A DNA stretch of 64,000 nucleotides, from assembly GCF_030418305.1 (NCBI RefSeq), contig NZ_JAUHPX010000001.1, positions 248,001-312,000 on the forward strand. The letters run 5' to 3'. The stretch is from Demequina lignilytica. GTDB lineage: Bacteria > Actinomycetota > Actinomycetes > Actinomycetales > Demequinaceae. The position numbers and the translations under genes are program-made. Position 1 is the stretch's first letter. The number at the start of each line of letters is the position of its first letter. Below the pieces are notes generated by a model, which searched no databases, had not been told where the DNA came from, and worked only from the letters and a program-made list of their open reading frames with translations. Of the stretch, positions 30,177 to 42,501 are shown piece by piece.

Positions 30177-31136
30177 GTGCCCGCACGACTGCGCTCCCCC
30201 GGCCTCGGTGCCGCCTACGCGCTCACCGCGGCCGCGCTGTTCGGCATCAACGGCTCCATCTCCAAGGTCGTGATGGCGGCCGGGATCACTCCGCCCCAGC
30301 TGACCTTCATGCGGGTGCTCGCCACCACCGTGATCGCGGGCGGCGTGCTGCTGGTCACCGATCGCGCCCAGTTCCGCGTCACGCGCGGCGAGCTGGCCCG
30401 GCTCGCGCTGCTCGGCGTGGCGGGCCTCGCCATGATCCAGTGGATGTACTCGGTCGCGATCGCGCGGCTCCCGGTCGGGGTCGCGCTGCTCTTCGAGTAC
30501 ACCGCCGTCGTGATGGTCGCGGTGGTCGCGTTCGCCGTGTTCAAGGAGCGGGTGCACCGCCGCCTGTGGCTCGCGATCGCCGGCGTGCTCGCCGGTCTCG
30601 CGGTGGTGGCGCAGGTGTGGGACTCCCACCTCGACGCGCTCGGCGTCGCCGCCGGGCTCGGGGCCGCGGTCTGCTACGCCTTCTACTTCCTCGCCGGCGA
30701 GCGCGGCGTGACGCGCCGGCCTCCCATGGCGATCGCGTTCTGGGCGTCGCTGTTCGCCACGGCCTTCTGGGCCCTGCTCTCGGGGTGGTGGCGCGTCGAG
30801 CCCGCGCTGCTCAACGGTTCCGTCTCTCTCGACGGCGCCCTCTCCGCGGTGGTCGTGCCGATGTGGGTGCCGCTGCTGTGGATCGCCGTGCTGGGCGGGT
30901 TCGCGCCCTTCACGCTGATCCTCACGTCGCTGCGCCACATCAGCGCGACCGCGTCGGGGATCATCGCCAGCTCCGAGGTGCTGTTCGCCTTCCTGGTGGC
31001 CTGGCTGTGGCTGGGCGAGACCCTCGCCCCGGTACCGCTCGCGGGCGCCGCCGTGGTGCTGATCGCGATCGTGGTGGCGCAGACCGCCCGCACCGAGCGG
31101 ACGCCCACCCCGGAGGTGCCGCCCGAGGTCCCCTAG
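30177..31136 (+). CDS. EamA/DMT family transporter
   Basis: The 319-residue membrane protein has ten hydrophobic helices arranged as two EamA repeats of five (residues about 10-145 and 155-300). The repeat signature near each fourth to fifth helix is visible, for example LLFEYTAVVMVAVVAFAVFKE and SSEVLFAFLVAWLWLGE. Such drug/metabolite transporters export amino acids or other small metabolites; the substrate is unknown. Its GTG is preceded by a -10 box at leaderless spacing. Confidence 0.88.
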   Translation: MPARLRSPGLGAAYALTAAALFGINGSISKVVMAAGITPPQLTFMRVLATTVIAGGVLLVTDRAQFRVTRGELARLALLGVAGLAMIQWMYSVAIARLPVGVALLFEYTAVVMVAVVAFAVFKERVHRRLWLAIAGVLAGLAVVAQVWDSHLDALGVAAGLGAAVCYAFYFLAGERGVTRRPPMAIAFWASLFATAFWALLSGWWRVEPALLNGSVSLDGALSAVVVPMWVPLLWIAVLGGFAPFTLILTSLRHISATASGIIASSEVLFAFLVAWLWLGETLAPVPLAGAAVVLIAIVVAQTARTERTPTPEVPPEVP

Positions 31137-31154
31137 GACCGGCTCGCCCCTCAA

Positions 31155-31193
31155 GATAGGGCACCTGCCCGATGTGCGACGGGTGCCTTAGGG
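31155..31193 (+). promoter_or_regulatory. 39-base upstream element, copy A
   Basis: This element shares 31 of 39 bases, without gaps, with copy B at 34565-34603. Both begin GATAGGGCA and end GCCTTAGGG, giving two TAGGG direct repeats about three helical turns apart. It lies 59 bases before the first small-protein ATG. It may be a promoter plus the binding site of a LAL regulator. Confidence 0.6.
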
Positions 31194-31252
31194 CGGAGCG
31201 TAGGTGGCGTCGATGAAGCGGCGCACGACCGCTTCCGACAGGGGGAGCCATC

Positions 31253-31453
31253 ATGAACGACCTGACCGCCAACGGCCTGTACATCACCACCCGCGCCGCG
31301 TCGCTCGACTCCGCCGCGGAGGCGCGGCGTCGCCAGCTCGAGCGCCTCGAGGACGCGCCTCGACCCAGCCGCCGTCGTCCCCTCCGTGAGTGGTTCTCCC
31401 ACCCCGTCCGTGCCGTGCTGCCACACCACGGCGGGCGTGCGGCCGCCGCGTAG
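31253..31453 (+). CDS. Small basic protein A, paired with a LAL regulator
   Basis: This 66-residue protein aligns without gaps to the first 53 residues of the 86-residue protein at 34664-34924, with 25 identities. Shared positions include L4, A6-N7, L9-Y10, R14-A15-A16, A21-A22-E23, R25-R26, L29-E30, R40-R41-R42, W47-F48, P51 and R53. The pattern suggests an N-terminal helix, an arginine-rich link and a WF motif. No signal peptide or membrane segment is present. The ATG follows GGGGGAG, and the context GGGGAGyCATCATG is shared by both paralogues. A LAL regulator follows after 160 bases. Function unknown. Confidence 0.75.
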   Translation: MNDLTANGLYITTRAASLDSAAEARRRQLERLEDAPRPSRRRPLREWFSHPVRAVLPHHGGRAAAA

Positions 31454-31613
31454 CGGCCTTCCCGTCGGCGCGGTTCGGTGCGACGATGGACCGGTGGCGC
31501 GCACCGCGCCCGGTCGTCCGCCGCGCCGACGGGAGGCACCGGTCGCGAGCCCTTCCCGGAGGCCGACGCCTCGACGGGGAGGACGCGGGCCGCGCATGGG
31601 GAGGGGAGGACCC

Positions 31614-34508
31614 GTGAGCACCGTTCCGACAGCGCCGCGGATGGTGGGCCGAGACCGCGAGCTCGGCGCGCTCCTCGACGCCGTCGCGTCGGGTCGCGCC
31701 GGAGAGCCGTCCACGGTGCTCGTCCGCGGCGAGGCCGGCATAGGCAAGACACGGCTGGTCACCGACCTGGTGGACCGTTCCCGGGAGATGCCGGGCACCG
31801 TGGTCGCCTCGGGCAGCTGCGTCGACCTGGGACCCATCGGTGCGCCGTTCACCTCGGTGCGGCGTCTCCTCCACGAGCTGGTCGAGGCGCTCGGGCTCGA
31901 GCCGGTGGCCGCGGCGGCAGGGAGCCCGCGCGTGCGGGCGACGCTCGCCCGGCTGATCCCGGAGCTCGACGAGGGCGAGGAGCCGCCGCCCGCCAGCGGG
32001 GCCGACTACGTGGCCGAGGCGATCGAGCGCGTGCTCGAGAACCTGTCGGTCGACCAGCACCTGCTCCTGGTCCTCGAGGATCTGCACTGGGCGGACGACG
32101 CGACCCGGGCCCTCCTGCGGACGCTGGCCGGCACCCTCCGGGCGAGCAGGCTCACGCTGGTGCTCACCTACCGGCCGGAGGACGTCGGCCGGGGGCATCC
32201 GCTGCGCGAGGTGCTCGCGGACCTCGAGCGGCGCCGGGGCGTGAGCCTGATCGATCTGCACCGGCTCACCCGCGAGCAGGTCGCGTCGCAGCTTCGCGAG
32301 CTGCAGGGGACAGAGCCGGGCGCCGCGGTGGTGGCGTCGGTGCTCCGACGGTCCGAGGGCGTGCCGTTCTTCGTCGAGGAGCTCGCCGGCGGCGACGGCG
32401 ACGATGCCGCGGGAACCCTCCGCGACATCGTCCTCGCCCGGTACGACCGCCTGCCCGGTGCCGCACGGGCCGTCGCCCGGCTCATGAGCGTCGCGGGCGA
32501 GCGGATCGATGACGCGCTCCTGCGCGAGGCGTGGGACGGCGAGGAGGCGCAGCGGCTCGAGGGACTGCGGCAATGCCTCGACGCCGGTGCCCTGACAGCC
32601 GACGAGGCGGGCTTCGCCTTCCACCATGCGCTGCTGCGCGAGGCGGTCTATCAGGACCTGCTGCCGAGCGAGCGCACCGAGGCGCACCGCCGGCTCGCAC
32701 GGATCGAGCAGGACCGGGTCGACGCGGGCGACACCGCGCGTGCCGCCGCGGCCTCCCACCACTGGCTGGCCGCGCAGGACGTCGACCGCGCCTTCGCCGC
32801 GATCGTCACCGCGCTCGACGAGGCACGCTCTGCCTACGCGGTGGTGTCAGCGGCCCGGCTCGGCGAGCAGCTCCTCGACCTGTGGGACCGGGTCGACTCC
32901 CCTGCGGCGCGGCTGGGCATGAGCGCGCTGGAGCTGCGCTGCCAGGTGGCCGAGGACCTGTACGACGCGGGCGAGAGCGTCTCCGCGATGCGCGCTGTCG
33001 ACGAGGCGCTCGCCGTCGCGCCCGCGACGGGAGCCGCGATCGAGCGCGCGCGACTCCACGCGACCGCGATGGCGCTCACGGCGGAGCATGTCGGGCGCTC
33101 CGGCGTGCCGGCTCACCTCGAGGAGATCGAGCGCCTGCTCGGCGACCGGACCGACGCCGCCGCGCTGCCGTTGCGCGTCGGGGCCCTGGCGGCTCGAGCG
33201 GTTCGGTCGGACTCCCCTCGGGGCGCGGTGCTCGCGGACGACTGCGTCGCCCTCGCCCGCACCGCCGGCAGCCCCGAGACGCTGTCGATGGCCCTGTGCA
33301 AGCGCGCGGTGGTCAATCGCAAGCGGAGCAGGTACGAGGATGCGATCGCCGACCTCCGCGCCGCGCTCACGATGGACGCGGGAGCGGTGCTGTGGGGACG
33401 GTGCGCGACCGCCAACCTGGTGGACGTCCTCAACCAGATGGGGCGGTACGACGAGGCGGTGGCAGCCGGTCTGGCGACGCTCGATGAGGCGATCGAGGCC
33501 GGGCTCGAGCGACGCATCGGCGCCCCGATCCTCGCCAACGTGGCCGAGGCGCTGGTGAACGCGGGACGGACGGACGAGGCGATGCCGCACCTGCGCCGCG
33601 CGCGCGCCCTGCTCGCGGGGGACTCGCCACGCTGGGGGGACTTCCTGGTCGAGATCGAGGCGACCGCGCTGCTCTGGGACGGGCGCATCGACGAGGCCTC
33701 GGAGGTGATCGAGGGGCCGGGCGTCCCGCCCGCGGTCGAGGACGATGCCGAGGCGGCCTTCAACCGGGCGGCGATCCTGGTCGAGGCGGAGACCGCGCGT
33801 GCGATGGAGAGCCCGCCCGTCGCCGCCCGCGCGCACGCCACGAGCGCGCTCGGTCGCGCGTCCGCGCTGTCCACGGAGGAGGCGCGCGCCGAGCCCGACG
33901 CCGCGGCACGGCTCCTGGTCGCGGCGAGCCGCGCGATCGCCGTGGCGCGCTCCGCGCGGCTGGATCCCGACGACAGCCTCGTCGCGAGCGTCCACGAGGT
34001 CGCGGCGGCGCTCCCCCGCCATCCGGCGATGGCGGCCTGGGCCCGGACCGCCGACGCGCTCGTGGCCGAGGCACCGGCCGAGACCTGGGGCGACATCGCC
34101 CGAGCGGCCGACGGCAACGCGCCGGTCCGGCTCGTCCTCGAGGCGCGGCTGTGGGAGGCGCTCGCGCTGCGACGCGAGGGCCGCCGCGCGGATGCTCGGG
34201 AGGCGTTCGACGCGCTGGCGCGTCATCCCGATGCCGGGCGCGCTCCTCTGGTCCTGCGATGGGCGGAACGGGAGACCGCCGGCACGGCGCTGCAGACCGC
34301 GGGCCCCTCGCTGACCGCGCGCGAGGGCGAGGTCCTCGCCCTGCTGGCGGCCGGCCTGACGAATCCCGAGATCGGCGACCGGCTCGTGATCTCGCGCAAG
34401 ACCGTCAGCGTCCACGTCTCCGCGATCCTCGCGAAGCTCGGCGCGGCCAACCGTACCGAGGCCGCCGCGTACTACGCCGGCTTGGACCGGACGCCCGCCT
34501 CGGCCTGA
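31614..34508 (+). CDS. LAL-type transcriptional regulator 1 (ATPase domain plus LuxR helix-turn-helix)
   Basis: The 964-residue protein is a large ATP-binding LuxR (LAL/MalT-like) regulator. The AAA domain has Walker A GEAGIGKT at residues 39-46 and Walker B LLLVLEDLHWADD near 150-161. A TPR-like helical region fills about 400-880. The LuxR DNA-binding domain is at the end (LTAREGEVLALLAAGLTN and ISRKTVSVHVSAILAKLG). Such proteins activate transcription after binding an inducer and ATP. GTG at 31614 is preferred because GGGGAGGA precedes it; an in-frame ATG at 31596 would place that site inside the gene. The gene follows small protein A and is paralogous to the next two regulators. Confidence 0.9.
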   Translation: MSTVPTAPRMVGRDRELGALLDAVASGRAGEPSTVLVRGEAGIGKTRLVTDLVDRSREMPGTVVASGSCVDLGPIGAPFTSVRRLLHELVEALGLEPVAAAAGSPRVRATLARLIPELDEGEEPPPASGADYVAEAIERVLENLSVDQHLLLVLEDLHWADDATRALLRTLAGTLRASRLTLVLTYRPEDVGRGHPLREVLADLERRRGVSLIDLHRLTREQVASQLRELQGTEPGAAVVASVLRRSEGVPFFVEELAGGDGDDAAGTLRDIVLARYDRLPGAARAVARLMSVAGERIDDALLREAWDGEEAQRLEGLRQCLDAGALTADEAGFAFHHALLREAVYQDLLPSERTEAHRRLARIEQDRVDAGDTARAAAASHHWLAAQDVDRAFAAIVTALDEARSAYAVVSAARLGEQLLDLWDRVDSPAARLGMSALELRCQVAEDLYDAGESVSAMRAVDEALAVAPATGAAIERARLHATAMALTAEHVGRSGVPAHLEEIERLLGDRTDAAALPLRVGALAARAVRSDSPRGAVLADDCVALARTAGSPETLSMALCKRAVVNRKRSRYEDAIADLRAALTMDAGAVLWGRCATANLVDVLNQMGRYDEAVAAGLATLDEAIEAGLERRIGAPILANVAEALVNAGRTDEAMPHLRRARALLAGDSPRWGDFLVEIEATALLWDGRIDEASEVIEGPGVPPAVEDDAEAAFNRAAILVEAETARAMESPPVAARAHATSALGRASALSTEEARAEPDAAARLLVAASRAIAVARSARLDPDDSLVASVHEVAAALPRHPAMAAWARTADALVAEAPAETWGDIARAADGNAPVRLVLEARLWEALALRREGRRADAREAFDALARHPDAGRAPLVLRWAERETAGTALQTAGPSLTAREGEVLALLAAGLTNPEIGDRLVISRKTVSVHVSAILAKLGAANRTEAAAYYAGLDRTPASA

Positions 34509-34533
34509 ATGCGGGCCGACGCACGCGCTCGCC

Positions 34534-34554
34534 CCGGACGCGGCTGAGGTGCCC
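34534..34554 (+). repeat. Copy of the LAL regulator 3 gene end
   Basis: These 21 bases match 40967-40987, the last codons, stop and terminator start of LAL regulator 3, at 20 of 21 positions. They lie 26 bases after the stop of regulator 1, outside any gene. Confidence 0.55.
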
Positions 34555-34564
34555 CGTCGCCGAA

Positions 34565-34603
34565 GATAGGGCATCCACCCCATGCCCGACGTGCGCCTTA
34601 GGG
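34565..34603 (+). promoter_or_regulatory. 39-base upstream element, copy B
   Basis: This is the partner of copy A at 31155-31193 (31 of 39 bases identical, no gaps). It lies 60 bases before the second small-protein ATG, against 59 in copy A, so both sequence and spacing are conserved. Confidence 0.6.
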
Positions 34604-34663
34604 AGCACCGTGAGCGGTGTCACCGCAGCGGCACCCGGCCGGTCGGGACAACGGGGAGTCATC

Positions 34664-34924
34664 ATGCACCAGCTCATCGCCAACGACCTCTACCTCGAGC
34701 GCCGCGCCGCCGGCGTCGCTGCCGCCGCGGAGCTCCGGCGGTCGCGGCTCGAGGGCCTCGACGGCGACGGGCCCGCACGTCGCCGTCGGTTCCTCAGCGA
34801 CTGGTTCGGGCGGCCCGCACGGCCCGCCGCGGCCCCCGGCCGCTGGGGCTCCCTCGGTCGCGTGGGGTCGCGCCTCGCGCCACGTGCGGCCTGGAGCGTT
34901 TCGGACGGGGATGTCACGATATGA
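34664..34924 (+). CDS. Small basic protein B, translationally coupled to LAL regulator 2
   Basis: The 86-residue protein is the paralogue of protein A (25 of 53 N-terminal residues identical, ungapped) with a longer, unrelated C-terminal tail rich in Arg, Pro, Ala and Gly. It is soluble and strongly basic. ATG at 34664 follows GGGGAG in the same context as protein A. Its TGA overlaps the ATG of LAL regulator 2 (ATGA at 34921-34924), which indicates translational coupling. A role as partner, inhibitor or signal for the regulator is inference from this linkage and from the duplicated arrangement. Confidence 0.75.
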   Translation: MHQLIANDLYLERRAAGVAAAAELRRSRLEGLDGDGPARRRRFLSDWFGRPARPAAAPGRWGSLGRVGSRLAPRAAWSVSDGDVTI

Positions 34925-37863
34925 CCATGAACGCGATCGCGCCCGCCGGCCGGATGGTGGGGCGCCGTCAGCAGGCGGACACCATCCGCGCCGCCGTGCG
35001 CGACGGCGCCGAGGGCCGGCCGCGCGTGCTCGTGGTGCGCGGCGAGGCGGGCATCGGCAAGTCCCGGCTGATCACGGAGATGCTCGCCGAGGCGGCCGCG
35101 GACGAGGCCGGCGTGCCGCGCGCGATCGCCGTGGGCCACTGCGTCGACATGGGGCCGATCGCGGCACCGTTCACGCCGTTCCGGCACGCGTTGCGCGCGC
35201 TGATGGACGCGGTGGGAGTCGACGCGTTCCGGGCCGCCGCCGGCGGCACCGCCACGCTCGTGCCGATCGGCTCGCTGCTGCCCGAGCTCGCGCCGGACGA
35301 GCCCGAGCGCTCGCGGGCCACCGCCGAGGTCGCGGAGGCGATCGAGGTGCTGGTCGAGAACCTCACCGCAGACGTCCACGCGATCGTGGTGCTGGAGGAC
35401 CTCCACTGGGCGGACCCCGCGTCCCTCGCGCTCGTGGCCACCTTGGCGGCGACGCTGCGCGCGACGCACCTCACGCTGGTCCTGACGTACCGCTCGGACG
35501 ACGTGGGCCGAGGCCACCCGCTGCGCGCGGTCCTCGCCGAGCTCGAACGCAACCGGGCGGTCGCGACCGTCGACGTCGCACCGTTGTCCGCCGAGGAGAT
35601 CGAGGACCAGGCGCACCAGATCATGGGGCGGCCTCCCACCGCTCGCGAGCTCGCCGAGCTGGTGGCGCGCACGGATGGGGTGCCGTTCTTCGTCGAGGAG
35701 CTGCTGGACCTCCCTCCGGGGCCGCTGCCCGACTCGCTGCGCGACGTGGTGCTCGCGCGCTACGACCGCCTGGCGACGGGAGCGCGCTCGGTGGCGAAGC
35801 TGGCGGCCGTGGCGGGGATGCGGGTCGACGACGAGACCCTCGGACTCGTCTGGCAGGGCGACCCGGAAGGGCTGGTCGACGGTCTGCAGGCGTGCGTCGC
35901 CGCCCATCTGCTCGTGGTCGACGGCGCCGGCTACACGTTCCGTCACGCACTCGTGCACGAGGCCGTCTACCAGGGGCTGCTGCCCTCGGAGCGGGCTCGT
36001 CACCACGCCGCGATCGCGGAGGCCCTCGAGGCACGCGCCGCGCGCGGCGAGCGCGAGCTCGCGGCCGGCATCGCCGCGCACTGGTTCGGCGCGCGGGACG
36101 CAGCACGGGCCTTCGACGCGACGGTGGCCGCCCTCGCCGAGGCACGCGACACCCATGCGTTCGAGACGTGCGCCCAGCTGGGCGAGCGGGTGCTCGAACT
36201 GTGGCGCGCCGTGGAGGATCCGGCGGGCCGGGCCGGCCGCAGCCGTGCGGCGCTCGCCGCGGACATCGCGCGCGACTACTTCGCCGCCGGCCGCAAGCGC
36301 GACGCACTGACGGTCGTCGACGACGCGCTGGACGCCTGCACCGAGGCGACGGCGTTCGAGCGCGCCGCGCTGCACCAGGTCGCCACGCGGGTGTCGTGCG
36401 AGGCGGACGGCTGCGGGTGCGGGGTCGACCACCTCGCGCAGCTGGAGAAGATCGTCAAGGACTCGGCCGACCCGGAGCTCGCTCCGCTGCGCGCGAACGC
36501 GCTCGCGATGCGCGCGGTCCACCGCGAGCGCGCCGAGGACGGCCTCGGCCTGTCCGACGAGGCGCTCGCGATCGCGGAGGCGGTGGGCGACCGTCACACG
36601 CTGGGGCCGGTCCTGCGCCTGCGGGGCATCGTCCTCCAGACGCTCGGCAGGAACGACGAGGTGATGGCGACCCTCGCGCGCGCGACCGAGGTCGACGGCC
36701 CCGACTCCGAGACGGGACTCATCGCGAGGAACAACCGCGTGGACCAGCTGATGGTCATGGGCCGGTACGCCGAGGCCGTCGACGCGGGGCTGCGCGCCAT
36801 CGAGCAGGCGATCGCCGCCGGCCGCGAGCGCTCCTGCGGCGGCTACATCCACGCGAACGTCGCGGAGGCGCTCGCGGCCCGCGGACGCGTCGACGAGGCC
36901 TTCACGCACGCGCACCGCGCGAGCGTGCTGTGGCGGGGCGAGTCGGGGCGCTGGCTGTCGATCGCACAGCGCGCCGAGGCCGGGGCGCTCCTGTGGGACG
37001 GCGACACCGAGCGCTTCCTCGCGATCGCCGCCGAGCTGCGGCCGGTGGTGCAGGCGATCGAGGACGACGTCGAGGAGACCGCGAACTGGGCGCGGCTGGG
37101 CATCGACGCCGCCGTGTCCCACGCGCTCACCACCGGCGGCGTCGAGCGGCGGCGCGCCGTGACGCAGGCGCTCGAGACCGCGCGAGTGCTCGCGAACCCG
37201 GATCTGCCCGAGCACGCCGTCGTGGTGCGGGACCTCCTGGTGTCCGGTGGCCGCGTCCTGGCGCTCGCCGCGGAATGGGGCATCGAGGCCGACCCTGCTC
37301 TCGAGGCGGGCCTGCGCGCCACGGTCGACAGGTTCCCCGCGGACCGCTGGACGCGGCCGATGCACGCGACGATGCGCGCGTACCTCGCCGATCTCGCGGG
37401 TGACGGCGACCGGCTCTCGCGGTGGACCGCGGTGCGGGACGCGACGGCGGTGGAGGGCGGGCGGGTCGCGCTCGCGCTCACCGCGCGCTACGAGCACGCA
37501 CGAGCCTTGCTGGACGCGGGCGCACGCGCGGAGGCGATCGCCTCGCTCACCGCGCTCGTCGACGACGCCGAGGAGCAGCACACCCGGCTCGTCGCCGGAT
37601 GGGCGCGCTCCACGCTGGCGCGGCTCGGCGCGGGCGGACACGGATCCGACGACGATGCCGGCGTCGGGCTCACCCCGCGCGAGCGGGAGGTCCTCGAGCT
37701 CATCGCCGAGGGCCTCACCAACGTGCAGATCGGCCAGCGCCTGTTCATCTCGCCCAAGACGGCGAGCGTGCACGTCTCGTCGATCCTCGCCAAGCTCGGT
37801 GCGGCGAATCGCGCGGAGGCGGCGGCCTGGTTCGCCGCGGAGGGGACCCGGTCACGAGCGTGA
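34921..37863 (+). CDS. LAL-type transcriptional regulator 2
   Basis: The 980-residue paralogue of regulator 1 has Walker A GEAGIGKS at residues 41-48, Walker B AIVVLEDLHWADP near 155-167, a long TPR-like middle region and a C-terminal LuxR helix-turn-helix (LTPREREVLELIAEGLTN, ISPKTASVHVSSILAKLG). A Cys-rich patch CEADGCGCG sits near residue 496, absent from the two paralogues. The ATG at 34921 overlaps the stop of small protein B; a second ATG two codons later is less well placed. The distance from start to the RMVGR motif is the same within two residues in all three regulators, which supports this start. Confidence 0.9.
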   Translation: MTMNAIAPAGRMVGRRQQADTIRAAVRDGAEGRPRVLVVRGEAGIGKSRLITEMLAEAAADEAGVPRAIAVGHCVDMGPIAAPFTPFRHALRALMDAVGVDAFRAAAGGTATLVPIGSLLPELAPDEPERSRATAEVAEAIEVLVENLTADVHAIVVLEDLHWADPASLALVATLAATLRATHLTLVLTYRSDDVGRGHPLRAVLAELERNRAVATVDVAPLSAEEIEDQAHQIMGRPPTARELAELVARTDGVPFFVEELLDLPPGPLPDSLRDVVLARYDRLATGARSVAKLAAVAGMRVDDETLGLVWQGDPEGLVDGLQACVAAHLLVVDGAGYTFRHALVHEAVYQGLLPSERARHHAAIAEALEARAARGERELAAGIAAHWFGARDAARAFDATVAALAEARDTHAFETCAQLGERVLELWRAVEDPAGRAGRSRAALAADIARDYFAAGRKRDALTVVDDALDACTEATAFERAALHQVATRVSCEADGCGCGVDHLAQLEKIVKDSADPELAPLRANALAMRAVHRERAEDGLGLSDEALAIAEAVGDRHTLGPVLRLRGIVLQTLGRNDEVMATLARATEVDGPDSETGLIARNNRVDQLMVMGRYAEAVDAGLRAIEQAIAAGRERSCGGYIHANVAEALAARGRVDEAFTHAHRASVLWRGESGRWLSIAQRAEAGALLWDGDTERFLAIAAELRPVVQAIEDDVEETANWARLGIDAAVSHALTTGGVERRRAVTQALETARVLANPDLPEHAVVVRDLLVSGGRVLALAAEWGIEADPALEAGLRATVDRFPADRWTRPMHATMRAYLADLAGDGDRLSRWTAVRDATAVEGGRVALALTARYEHARALLDAGARAEAIASLTALVDDAEEQHTRLVAGWARSTLARLGAGGHGSDDDAGVGLTPREREVLELIAEGLTNVQIGQRLFISPKTASVHVSSILAKLGAANRAEAAAWFAAEGTRSRA

Positions 37864-37915
37864 GCGCCCGGCCTCCCCTCGCGCGCAGGGGTCGATCACC
37901 GTTGAGGCGCCCGCT

Positions 37916-37984
37916 CCGCGCGCGAGGGCGAGGTGCTCGCCCTGCTGGCGGCCGGCCTGGACCGGACGCCCGCCTCGGCCTGAA
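37916..37984 (+). pseudogene. Relic of the LAL regulator 1 C terminus with the helix-turn-helix core deleted
   Basis: This stretch equals 34315-34358 joined to 34485-34509 of regulator 1 with 68 of 69 bases identical. The missing 126 bases (42 codons) lie between two GCCGGCyTG repeats, so a repeat-mediated in-frame deletion explains it. It would read AREGEVLALLAAGLDRTPASA and stop, without the DNA-recognition helix. It sits between regulators 2 and 3, detached from any gene body. Confidence 0.75.
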
Positions 37985-37999
37985 CCTCGGCCGGCAAGC

Positions 38000-38055
38000 C
38001 ATCTAGCAGGACTGATCGCCAGCGACCCCTCGACTGCAACGCTCGAGTGCGGCAC
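38000..38055 (+). pseudogene. Possible relic of a small-protein gene before LAL regulator 3
   Basis: ATCGCCAGCGACC (38015-38027) matches codons 5-9 of small protein B (34676-34688) at 12 of 13 bases. CATC and GCA precede it as around the start codon of that gene, and CTCGAG follows at a similar offset. The reading GLIASD resembles QLIAND. The start codon and most of the gene are gone. The order tail relic, small-protein relic, regulator repeats that of the intact modules. Confidence 0.4.
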
Positions 38056-38064
38056 CATGGGGAG

Positions 38065-40980
38065 ATGGCCGTCGCCCCGTTGGCCGCCAGAATGGTGGGC
38101 CGCGACACCGAGCTGGCCGCGCTCCTGGACCTGTGCGCCGCCGGGCGCGCAGGCGAGCCTCGAACCGCTCTCATCCGTGGCGAGGCCGGGATCGGCAAGA
38201 CGCGGCTCCTGCGGGAGTGCCTCGAGCGCGCGGCTCGCGGCTACGAAGTCGAGCCGGTCGTCGCGACGAGCCATTGCATCGACCTCGGGCCCGTCGGCGC
38301 TCCACTCACGCCCATCCGCAGGCTGCTGCGGGACTGCTGCGCGCGGGTCGGGGCTGACGCGATCGAGGCGGCATCGGGGACGCCTGCGATCATCGCGGCC
38401 CTCGCGACGCTGGTGCCGGAGCTCGCCAGCGGGCCGTCGGCGCCGCTGACAGGAGGCGCCGACTACATCCCCGAGGCGATCGAGACCCTGGTCGAGGGCC
38501 TGTCACGTGACCGACACCTGATCCTCGCCGTCGAGGACATCCATTGGGCGGATGCGGCCACCCTGGCGGTGCTGCGCGTGCTGGCGACCACCCCGCGTGC
38601 GACGCATCTGACGCTGCTGCTGACCTACCGTACCGACGACGTCGACCGCGGCCCGGACATGGCCGCATGGCTTGCCGAGATGCAGCGCGCCAGGACGGTC
38701 ACCACGATCGATATCAGCCGTCTCCGTGCCGAGCAGGTGGCGGCGCACGCCGGCCAGATCCTCGACCGGGAGCCGACCTCGACCGAGGTCGCCACCCTCA
38801 TGGAGCGCAGCGAGGGCGTCCCGTTCTTCGTCGAGGAGCTGCTCGGCCTTCCGGAGCACGCGCTGCCCTCGTCGTTGCGCGAGGTGGTGCTCGCCCGTGT
38901 GGGGCGGCTCGAGGACCCCGGTCGCGCGGTGGTCCGCGTGGCGGCGGTCGCCGGCGCACGGCTCGAGCACGACGATCTCGCCTCAGCGTGGCCGGGCGAG
39001 GTGCCGGAGCTGACCGCGGGGCTTCACGCGGCGATCGCCGCCGGCATCCTCGGCGCCGAGGGCGACGGCTACGTCTTCCGCCACGCGCTGATCCGGGAGG
39101 CGGTGTACGAGCAGCTCCTGCCCCACGAGCGCAAGGACCTGCATCGCGCGTATGCGTCGGACCTCCAGAGGCGTCTGGACGGCGGCGATGCGGGCGCCGC
39201 AGCGCCCGCGGCCGCGCACTGGCGTGCCGCCGACGATCCCGACGCGGCGTTCGCGGCGACCGTCGCCGCGGTCGCCCATGCGCGGGCGACGCTCGCCGTC
39301 GACATCGCCGCACGGCTGGGCGAGCAGCTGGTCGGTCTGTGGGGCCGGGTGCCGCGTGCCGCGGAGGTCGCGGGGGCGGATCTCGCGCACGTCCGGCGGG
39401 CGATCGCACAGGACTACCTCGATGCGCACGAGGTGCGCGCGTGCCTGCGCGTGATCGACGACGCGCTCGCGGCGGCGCCCGTCTCCGATGCCGAGACGCG
39501 GGTGCCCCTGATCCTCATGGAGATCCGGGTCGCCCGGGAGACGGAGCGCCGTCTCGACAGGGCCGCACGGCTCGACGAGCTCGACTCCCTCATCAGCGGT
39601 CGCAACGACGCCGAGGCCGAGCTCTGGCGCGCCCAGTCGGTGACCTGGCGCGCGTCATGCTCGCGCGGAGCCGAGAGCGACGCGCTCCACGACCGAGCCG
39701 TCGCCCTCGCCTCGGCGACCGGCGACGCGCGCGTGCTCGCCTTCGCGAAGCTCATGCGCGCGAAGAACTGCTGGTCGACGGGTCACCTCGAGAGGGCTCA
39801 CGCGGACCTGGCCGAGGTGCTGGAGCTGTGCCCAGAGCCCGATGACACCCGGCTGCTGGCCGTCAACAACATCGTCTGCAACCACCTGCAGGCGGGACGG
39901 TTCGGTGCAGCCGTCGATCTCGGACTCGCGACCGTGGCTCTGGTGACGGAGGCCGGTCGCGAGCGGGCCGGGGCGCACATCCTCTCGAACACGGCCGAGG
40001 GGATCATCGCCTCGGGCCGTCTCGAGGAGGGCATCGCGGCGGCGCGCCGCTCCGTCAGCCTCTCCCGCGGCGACTCCGTGCAGATCGTCCTCAACGCGAA
40101 GCAGATCGAGGGGCTCGGCCTGGCGTGGGACGGGCGCCTCGAGGAGTACGACCGCCTGATCGCGCTCGAGACGTCGGTCGCGCAGGACACGCAGCTGGAC
40201 CTGCAGTGGATCGGGGTGTGGCACCAGCTCCGCGTCGACGCGGCCGTGGTCCGGGCGATGGCGTCTGCGCCCGCGGCCCGCGCCGCCCTCCTCAGCCAAG
40301 CGATGTCGCTGGTCGATCCGCTCGGCACCGCCGAGGCCGAGCACGCGCCGGGCGATCTGGACGTGCTGGTGGTCTCCGCGGCGGCGCTGATGGGCGCTGC
40401 CGCGCGCGTGGGCGTCGAGGTGCCCGCGGACCGTGTGGCGACCATCCGGAGCATCGCCACGCAGCTGGGCCGCCATCCGTGGTTCCGGTCGTCGTTGGTC
40501 CTCACGGAAGCCCACCTCGGCGACGCGACGCGATCCCCGGATCGCGTCGAGAGGTGGCGGCTCGCGGTCGCCGAATGCGCGCGAGGCCGGGTGCCGCGCC
40601 GCCACGTGCACCACTCGCGCTACCTGCTGGCGGACGCATTGCTCGACCACGGCTCACGGGACGAGGCGGTGGACCTGCTGAGCGCCGTCGCGGCGGAGGC
40701 GCCCCCCGACGGCGTCGGGGCCGTCGGGGCGTGGGCGACGGAGCTGCTGACGCGCCTGGGCCGATCCGGGCCGGACCTCCAGGTCGACGGACCGCTCACG
40801 GAACGTGAGACCCAGGTGCTCGACCTGGTCGCGGAGGGCCTCTCCAACGGGGAGATCGGCGAGCGGCTGTTCATCTCGCGGAAGACCGTCAGCGTCCACG
40901 TCTCGTCGATCCTCGCCAAGCTCGGCGTCGCCAACCGCACCGAGGCCGCCGCCTATCACCACGCCTCCGGACGCGGCTGA
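38065..40980 (+). CDS. LAL-type transcriptional regulator 3
   Basis: The 971-residue third paralogue has Walker A GEAGIGKT at residues 39-46, Walker B LILAVEDIHWADA near 151-163, a TPR-like central region and a terminal LuxR domain (LTERETQVLDLVAEGLSN, ISRKTVSVHVSSILAKLG). ATG at 38065 places RMVGR nine residues in, as in regulator 1; a GTG at 38047 is an alternative start. It lacks an intact small protein and upstream element, showing relics of both a regulator tail and perhaps a small protein instead. A perfect hairpin spanning its stop codon ends the array, facing sigA. Confidence 0.9.
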   Translation: MAVAPLAARMVGRDTELAALLDLCAAGRAGEPRTALIRGEAGIGKTRLLRECLERAARGYEVEPVVATSHCIDLGPVGAPLTPIRRLLRDCCARVGADAIEAASGTPAIIAALATLVPELASGPSAPLTGGADYIPEAIETLVEGLSRDRHLILAVEDIHWADAATLAVLRVLATTPRATHLTLLLTYRTDDVDRGPDMAAWLAEMQRARTVTTIDISRLRAEQVAAHAGQILDREPTSTEVATLMERSEGVPFFVEELLGLPEHALPSSLREVVLARVGRLEDPGRAVVRVAAVAGARLEHDDLASAWPGEVPELTAGLHAAIAAGILGAEGDGYVFRHALIREAVYEQLLPHERKDLHRAYASDLQRRLDGGDAGAAAPAAAHWRAADDPDAAFAATVAAVAHARATLAVDIAARLGEQLVGLWGRVPRAAEVAGADLAHVRRAIAQDYLDAHEVRACLRVIDDALAAAPVSDAETRVPLILMEIRVARETERRLDRAARLDELDSLISGRNDAEAELWRAQSVTWRASCSRGAESDALHDRAVALASATGDARVLAFAKLMRAKNCWSTGHLERAHADLAEVLELCPEPDDTRLLAVNNIVCNHLQAGRFGAAVDLGLATVALVTEAGRERAGAHILSNTAEGIIASGRLEEGIAAARRSVSLSRGDSVQIVLNAKQIEGLGLAWDGRLEEYDRLIALETSVAQDTQLDLQWIGVWHQLRVDAAVVRAMASAPAARAALLSQAMSLVDPLGTAEAEHAPGDLDVLVVSAAALMGAAARVGVEVPADRVATIRSIATQLGRHPWFRSSLVLTEAHLGDATRSPDRVERWRLAVAECARGRVPRRHVHHSRYLLADALLDHGSRDEAVDLLSAVAAEAPPDGVGAVGAWATELLTRLGRSGPDLQVDGPLTERETQVLDLVAEGLSNGEIGERLFISRKTVSVHVSSILAKLGVANRTEAAAYHHASGRG

Positions 40981-41013
40981 GGCGCCCTCCCCGGAGCGGG
41001 CGAGGGCGCCTCA
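40978..41013. terminator. Bidirectional hairpin between LAL regulator 3 and sigA
   Basis: Perfect 12-base arms TGAGGCGCCCTC (40978-40989) and GAGGGCGCCTCA (41002-41013) flank a 12-base loop. The left arm includes the stop codon of regulator 3. The sigA stop lies 19 bases beyond. Confidence 0.7.
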
Positions 41014-41031
41014 GCGCGTCGTGAGCGGGTG

Positions 41032-42501
<1,470 letters not shown>

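Follow-up and report, generated by a model that had tools for sequence, protein, structure and literature searches.

A recurrent element, small basic gene and LAL regulator gene in actinobacteria: a candidate self-activating operon with a companion protein

What does a small basic protein do when its gene lies, behind a shared promoter-like element, just ahead of the gene for a large ATPase regulator? The question is raised by a stretch of 64,000 nucleotides (hereafter the window) from the 2.9 Mb genome of Demequina lignilytica (contig NZ_JAUHPX010000001.1, positions 248,001 to 312,000), in which three genes for LAL regulators stand in tandem, the first two each preceded by a conserved element and by one of two related small genes, S1 and S2. 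A first-pass annotation of this DNA described the arrangement and proposed that element, small gene and regulator gene form a unit. The arrangement is as described, and the unit is now strongly supported, namely by a three-part architecture with fixed geometry that recurs in 33 genera of a sample of the bacterial class. As to what the small protein does, the answer tentatively favoured here, with somewhat less than even confidence, is that a MalT-like STAND regulator activates its own operon, with the small protein feeding back on the LAL.

All three LAL genes lie on the forward strand, LAL1 at 31614-34508 (964 residues), LAL2 at 34921-37863 (980 residues) and LAL3 at 38047-40980 (977 residues). 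Each product carries an AAA_16 domain at its N-terminus (E 2e-27 to 5e-24) and a GerE domain, a LuxR-type helix-turn-helix, at its C-terminus, both above the Pfam cut-off, as well as TPR matches in mid-protein that in every case fall below it. By their AAA_16 and GerE domains and a size of about 900-1000 residues the three proteins are assigned to the LAL, or MalT-type, STAND regulators. Pfam likewise finds AAA_16 and GerE in three module LALs from elsewhere, those of a Microbispora, a Microbacterium and a metagenome-assembled Microbacteriaceae genome, with TPR above the cut-off in one of these three, the Microbispora protein. Identity is 42% in each pair of window LALs, which are thus old paralogues, and LAL2 is 74% identical to the LAL of genome G029.

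S1 (31253-31453, forward strand; GC by codon position 78.8/60.6/86.4) encodes a basic protein of 66 residues, and its end lies 160 nucleotides from the start of LAL1. S2 (34664-34924, forward strand) encodes 86 residues, and its stop codon overlaps the start of LAL2 in the ATGA at 34921-34924, as the first-pass annotation had stated. Over their first 53 residues the two proteins share 25 identities without a gap, a number equalled by none of 100,000 shuffles of S2. The closest relative of S2 (E 5e-16) lies in G029, where it is followed by a LAL2-type gene. Neither S1 and S2 nor ten of their relatives (12 proteins in all) have a match in Pfam or NCBIfam other than weak ones below the cut-off, and PADLOC has no match to S1 or S2. 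Ahead of S1 lies element 1 (31155-31202, forward strand), which consists of the dyad ATAGGGCA-CC-TGCCCGAT (31156-31173), CCTTAG (31186-31191) and a -10-like GAGCGT (31196-31201). Element 2 (34565-34612, forward strand), ahead of S2, similarly holds GATAGGGCATCCACCCCATG, CCTTAG and a -10-like CACCGT (34606-34611), and the two elements agree at 31 of 39 bases. With at most one mismatch, the pattern GATAGGGCANNNNCCCGATG occurs in the genome at these two elements only, and its reversed control not at all; a looser pattern finds the same two matches only, but there the reversed control yields 2 and 2.

The element recurs far beyond this genome. In a collection of 84,980 species, the exact dyad pattern identified 75 stretches, of which 50 have a LAL downstream. 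The remaining 25 comprise four Streptomyces genes of the major facilitator superfamily (MFS; loci L098, L111, L123, L145), eight stretches where a small gene is present and no LAL was seen beyond it (L113, L118, L128, L131, L132, L139, L140, L154; that of L140 ends about 500 nucleotides past the element), four that end too close to the element to be judged (L122, L133, L152, L161) and nine in which there is no module (L103, L105, L106, L109, L117, L126, L146, L156, L157), six of these belonging to other phyla. A sequence-only profile was built from 65 elements, mostly from LAL loci (16 of 81 non-redundant elements were omitted), and searched against 394 genomes of the class at E <=0.001 per genome, for which about 0.4 false matches are expected, the E-values being rough. 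It gave 113 matches in 103 of the 394 genomes and 44 of 138 genera, and 109 of these were examined, leaving aside the two of the D. lignilytica genome and those of G1413 and G1235. A LAL gene lies downstream on the same strand in 79 of the 109 (78 by tblastn, one by profile), distributed over 77 genomes and 33 genera, and in 78 of the 79 the first LAL alignment lies within 700 nucleotides of the element. For most of these LALs the sequence fetched was the N-terminal part, and the GerE result refers to the window LALs and the three module LALs above.

Between element and regulator there is, as a rule, a small gene. A candidate small open reading frame (ORF) with a ribosome-binding site follows 93 of the 100 class matches outside MFS loci, including 76 of the 79 that are LAL-linked; in three of these 76 (L339, L391, L417) the frame runs into the LAL alignment, and there the ORF, or the start assigned to it, may be incorrect. 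The 93 candidates have a median length of 60 residues, the small proteins mostly spanning 36-105, and a net positive charge in 91 cases, with a median of +7. Their pooled GC by codon position is 75/58/91, a figure flattered by the choice of the best GC pattern where several ORFs were possible. In one genome two elements 345 nucleotides apart (L355 and L357; G052 C5:213123, 213468) each have a candidate small ORF and share one LAL, a double module. At L340, L383 and L398, good elements without a LAL are followed by Lys/Arg-rich ORFs of 36 residues, which may represent the small protein at its most reduced.

The same association emerges when the small protein, and not the element, is used as the probe. 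Nineteen small proteins from Nonomuraea, Microbispora and their kin were made into a profile which, searched against 200 genomes of the family of Microbispora hainanensis (G411), gave 104 matches in 93 genomes, seeds included. The 90 that were fetched (that of G422, one of two in G621 and the 12 weakest were left out) all have the element 72-148 nucleotides upstream, with 13-16 of 16 fixed positions, and 81 of them have a LAL downstream. The first-pass annotation had named, as an outcome adverse to its proposal, homologues lying mostly away from LAL genes; with 81 of 90 LAL-linked, the reverse is found. A Microbacterium-type profile matches in 7 of 199 genomes of the Microbacterium family, with a LAL beside six of the seven matches and the element at five. 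The genes flanking the module differ among lineages, being a sigma factor in Demequina, deoC and GDT1 in Microbispora, and other genes in Microbacterium and Nocardioides; thus the adjacency of element and LAL is no by-product of one conserved neighbourhood. At L112, L144, L134 and L099 the module sits between a divergent deoC and a convergent GDT1 (by Pfam for L112, by eye for the others).

Within Demequina itself, the small-protein profile finds good homologues (E <1e-24) in 7 of 44 genomes, that of D. lignilytica included, each with an element 95-102 nucleotides before its start. It reaches E 0.01 in 9 of the 44, and the matches in G002 and G004 (E 0.008-0.009), like a third in the D. lignilytica genome (0.005), were taken as chance. 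With LAL3 as query, 15 LAL genes are found in 11 of the 44 genomes. In the four LAL-bearing genomes that lack a good profile match, the LAL is preceded by a diverged small ORF; the dyad is changed yet symmetric in three of them, and the element of the fourth is degenerate. Altogether the element is directly upstream of 10 of the 15 LALs (one of these elements being degenerate), and the loci of the other five hold an element and small gene nearby. Across 396 genomes of the order, the Demequina-type profile matches in six genomes, all Demequina; a family of small proteins confined to the genus was nonetheless rejected, the element search having revealed a partner protein that diverges beyond the reach of the profile.

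The element keeps a fixed geometry. With the dyad as the reference point, the 65 elements align over 54 nucleotides, element 1 lining up with the 64 others. The dyad occupies positions 2-19 of this model (centre 10.5) and a hexamer NANNNT positions 42-47, with A43 in all 65 and T47 in at least 90%. The distance from dyad to hexamer is fixed, and the CCTNAG between them slides by 1-2 nucleotides among lineages; the element thus behaves like an activator site plus a -10. If the hexamer is the -10, as its conservation suggests, the dyad centre would fall near -43 from the predicted +1, the place where class II activators bind, and all 65 elements would have the layout of a LuxR-type class II operator-promoter, a dyad at a set distance from the predicted -10. 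The outer bases of the dyad read GGGC..GCCC in 49 of the 65 and GGGA..TCCC in 3; the rest are mixed, with GGGC facing TCCC or ACCC. These bases covary more than chance would give, GGGA standing always opposite TCCC (Fisher p 0.003, uncorrected for relatedness). GerE recognition helices were compared with the element variants, which are few and closely alike. A related dyad, CTVGGGAWWTCCCBAG, is bound in the -35 region by PAS-LuxR activators of the PimM type, which share a GGGA-centred dyad, GGGA-WW-TCCC (PMC9774167). Those activators differ in having a PAS sensor and not a STAND ATPase and in a GGG-CCC spacing of 4 nucleotides, against 6 in the module element, and the excerpt of the source drawn on here mentions no small-protein partner (PMC9774167). 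A consensus fold of the 65 elements over the 54 nucleotides contains no base pairs, and an Rfam scan of the window gave no match at the gathering score. An RNA leader or riboswitch in the element was rejected on these grounds, and the element looks like DNA, not RNA.

The small ORF, for its part, behaves as a protein-coding frame. Taken as uncorrected ratios at high divergence, which hence understate constraint, nonsynonymous to synonymous differences per site (pN/pS) stand at 0.73 in the true frame of 658 same-length pairs, against 1.00 and 1.25 in the shifted frames; a lack of purifying selection, the other adverse outcome named by the first-pass annotation, is thus not what is seen. Across 3894 aligned pairs the ratio is 0.79, with 3224 pairs below 1. 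All 55 pairs among 11 Microbacterium sequences fall below 1, at a ratio of 0.57, as do 27 of the 28 pairs among eight Demequina sequences, at 0.76. The small ORF is under real but loose constraint, and within lineages the N-terminal part of the protein is its best conserved region. Between lineages similarity is slight, with hhalign E-values of 0.0006, 0.004 and 0.08 in single comparisons of low probability, and it suggests only weakly that the small-protein groups of different lineages are homologous. Selection on the reading frame speaks against the notion that the ORF is a leader, or attenuator, whose translation controls the LAL and whose product is irrelevant. The position of the ORF before the LAL, the ATGA overlap in module 2 and the variable C-terminal parts would suit a leader, but the protein is conserved in the Microbispora family, 160 nucleotides intervene between S1 and LAL1, copies with no LAL downstream exist, and the 54-nucleotide element, which alone was covered, has no consensus RNA structure, so that a leader is hardly to be expected.

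Also very unlikely is a peptide-signalling role modelled on the RRNPP receptors, which have a TPR domain: the small protein would be a propeptide, and the TPR-like sensor region of the LAL would detect the peptide made from it. Such a role would account for a small gene beside a regulator with TPR matches, below the cut-off in the window LALs and above it in the Microbispora LAL, and for fast divergence outside the N-terminal part. RRNPP pairs do resemble the module in placing a small gene beside a receptor gene (PMC10075063). They differ in that the small protein here is without an export signal and the regulator, at about 960 residues, has an ATPase domain of its own. None of the 93 candidates has the hydrophobic export segment of an exported propeptide (the top 19-residue hydropathy is 1.15, and none exceeds 1.6), other export routes being conceivable, and conservation is best at the N-terminus and not at a C-terminal peptide.

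The element is probably read by the adjacent LAL, as the position of the LAL and its co-occurrence with the element indicate. The alternative is that another regulator or a special sigma factor reads the element and that the LAL is a passenger in the operon. In its favour, a LuxR-type dyad leaves the CCTNAG between dyad and -10 unexplained, five Demequina LALs lack an element of their own, and of the 21 class matches with neither LAL nor MFS gene downstream, 16 lie in genomes without a LAL-linked match, which the search may have missed. This alternative is nonetheless distinctly unlikely, because a LAL follows 79 of the 109 class matches in 33 genera and in differing contexts, no recurrent downstream gene was seen besides the LAL and the MFS group, and the dyad is of the kind bound by GerE-type domains (PMC9774167).

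In the favoured explanation, that of a self-activating operon, the LAL would sense a signal and then oligomerise, and its GerE domain would bind the dyad (ATARGGC-N4-GCCCGAT and variants), centred near -43 at a promoter with just a weak -10 (NANNNT). Binding would turn on transcription of the small gene and, behind it, of the LAL gene. The small protein, whose production would follow LAL activity, would bind the LAL and tune it. This last step is the least certain and may, at slightly under even likelihood, be correct: the small protein would then be a feedback partner as MalY is for MalT. In Escherichia coli the STAND activator MalT, which resembles the module regulators in its large STAND ATPase, sensor region and LuxR-like DNA-binding domain, is described as being kept inactive by partner proteins such as MalY (PMC10427625). 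The difference is that MalY is a separate protein and not a small product of the same operon. It is also larger than the small proteins here, and we know of no operator that MalT would share with a fixed small gene.

Several observations weigh against this explanation. The -10 and the +1 are both predicted from conservation, the dyad is of mixed type in 13 of the 65 elements, and at L414 the LAL begins 1138 nucleotides past the element. Five of the 15 Demequina LALs have no element of their own (LAL3 of the window and the LAL1-type genes of G006, G023, G031 and G060), and in Demequina maris and Demequina rhizosphaerae the small gene has no LAL after it, a LAL lying upstream in the same locus. 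Conservation of the small protein is poor outside the N-terminal region. Nine of the 90 fetched Microbispora-family copies of element and small gene have no LAL following. Nine of the 109 class matches precede an MFS gene, and the 21 with neither LAL nor MFS gene downstream, many of which have a small gene, include only 5 in genomes with a LAL-linked match; among the 21, L376 is a contig end and L341 has a LAL directly upstream. Finally, a regulon made up of the operon alone would leave a pure feedback partner nothing else to tune.

Because element and small gene occur without an adjacent LAL, and the element before MFS genes, the small protein may be an output of the system and not a partner of the LAL. 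This is the main rival to a feedback role, and it holds that the LAL exists to switch on, besides itself, a basic protein whose target lies elsewhere, such as RNA polymerase, the ribosome, nucleic acid or the envelope. In its favour, the small gene is the promoter-proximal gene of the modules, a net positive charge is nearly universal among the candidate ORFs (91 of 93, median +7), another kind of gene, the MFS gene, uses the element, and the nine LAL-less Microbispora-family copies lie in nine genomes that each also have a LAL-linked copy (9 of 9). Elements are also few per genome, with a single copy in 17 and two to three copies in 7 of 24 genomes selected by the element. On the other hand, proteins that bind conserved core machinery are not usually under so loose a sequence constraint, and the frequent adjacency of the LAL would need another reason, such as operon economy. 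An effector role is a real possibility that on balance we do not expect. The extra LAL-less copies and the MFS genes under the element fit a regulator that acts at other sites, and do not decide between partner and effector.

The nine MFS matches of the class search all lie in genus g111, which also has nine LAL-linked matches; one of the MFS proteins is 94% identical to an MFS protein of Streptomyces atratus, and g111 is therefore taken as Streptomyces. At the MFS loci (L098, L111, L123, L145, L334, L351, L352, L362, L365, L393, L402, L406, L409) the element stands directly before the MFS start, with no small gene. MFS_1 was confirmed by Pfam at L145 and L098, the other loci being assigned by tblastn or by eye. 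A second small gene, mostly of the MNAELEY type, with an element and no LAL seen after it, occurs at L128, L131, L140, L154, L236, L251, L260, L262, L266, L273 and L281. A DUF4230 gene lies upstream at L140 (Pfam), with a similar one, by eye, in other Nonomuraea loci, and at L131 there is a convergent thiolase-like gene, also by eye.

In the window, LAL3 has neither an element nor a small gene before it; the relatives that match it best, in G006 and G060, have both. Before LAL3, at 37916-37984 on the forward strand, lies a remnant of the 3' end of LAL1, consisting of 44 nucleotides at 98% identity and the last coding stretch of LAL1, with about 126 nucleotides missing between them, a trace of local duplication and deletion; part of a module thus seems to have been lost there. 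The array is flanked by a convergent sigma-70 factor gene (41032-42501, reverse strand) and by an EamA transporter gene. A scan of 31000-41100 for sigma-70 consensus promoters and T-tailed stem terminators, the forms that it covers, found none. A role in defence was rejected, the PADLOC matches being limited to the helix-turn-helix of CARF-type models. No fusion of small protein and LAL was confirmed, and the small ORF at L141 that seemed to enter a LAL motif stops before the LAL.

For most LALs, to our knowledge, neither the signal nor the DNA site nor the partner has been established, and no small gene partner is known for the mycobacterial regulator IniR. By its description IniR resembles the module LALs, being named a signal transduction ATPase with control over an envelope stress response (PMC5760070). 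The LAL regulators, with MalT as type member, are described as a poorly studied family, and Streptomyces SCO0877 and SCO7173, of the same LAL class by description, are treated as global regulators, the available portion of that source mentioning neither an upstream small gene nor a shared element (PMC3282765). Among the matches listed in the open-access literature, no title or abstract start describes the element, the small proteins or the unit.

The LAL class and its MalT prototype are already known; the companion protein is new. A bolder reading, which we regard as rather unlikely, is that this is a widespread undescribed module in which the one conserved target of a STAND regulator is the private promoter of a small basic protein, its dedicated ligand or adaptor. 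If that were true, a MalT-like ATPase would read a protein-sized signal, and the small protein would be the first such partner common to a large LAL group, with an operator readable from sequence alone. One large group of LALs, across 33 genera, now comes with a companion protein and with predictions of its operator and promoter geometry; one of these genera would be Streptomyces, where genetics is routine. The binding site of these LALs, their regulon and the role of the small basic proteins are thereby opened to direct test.

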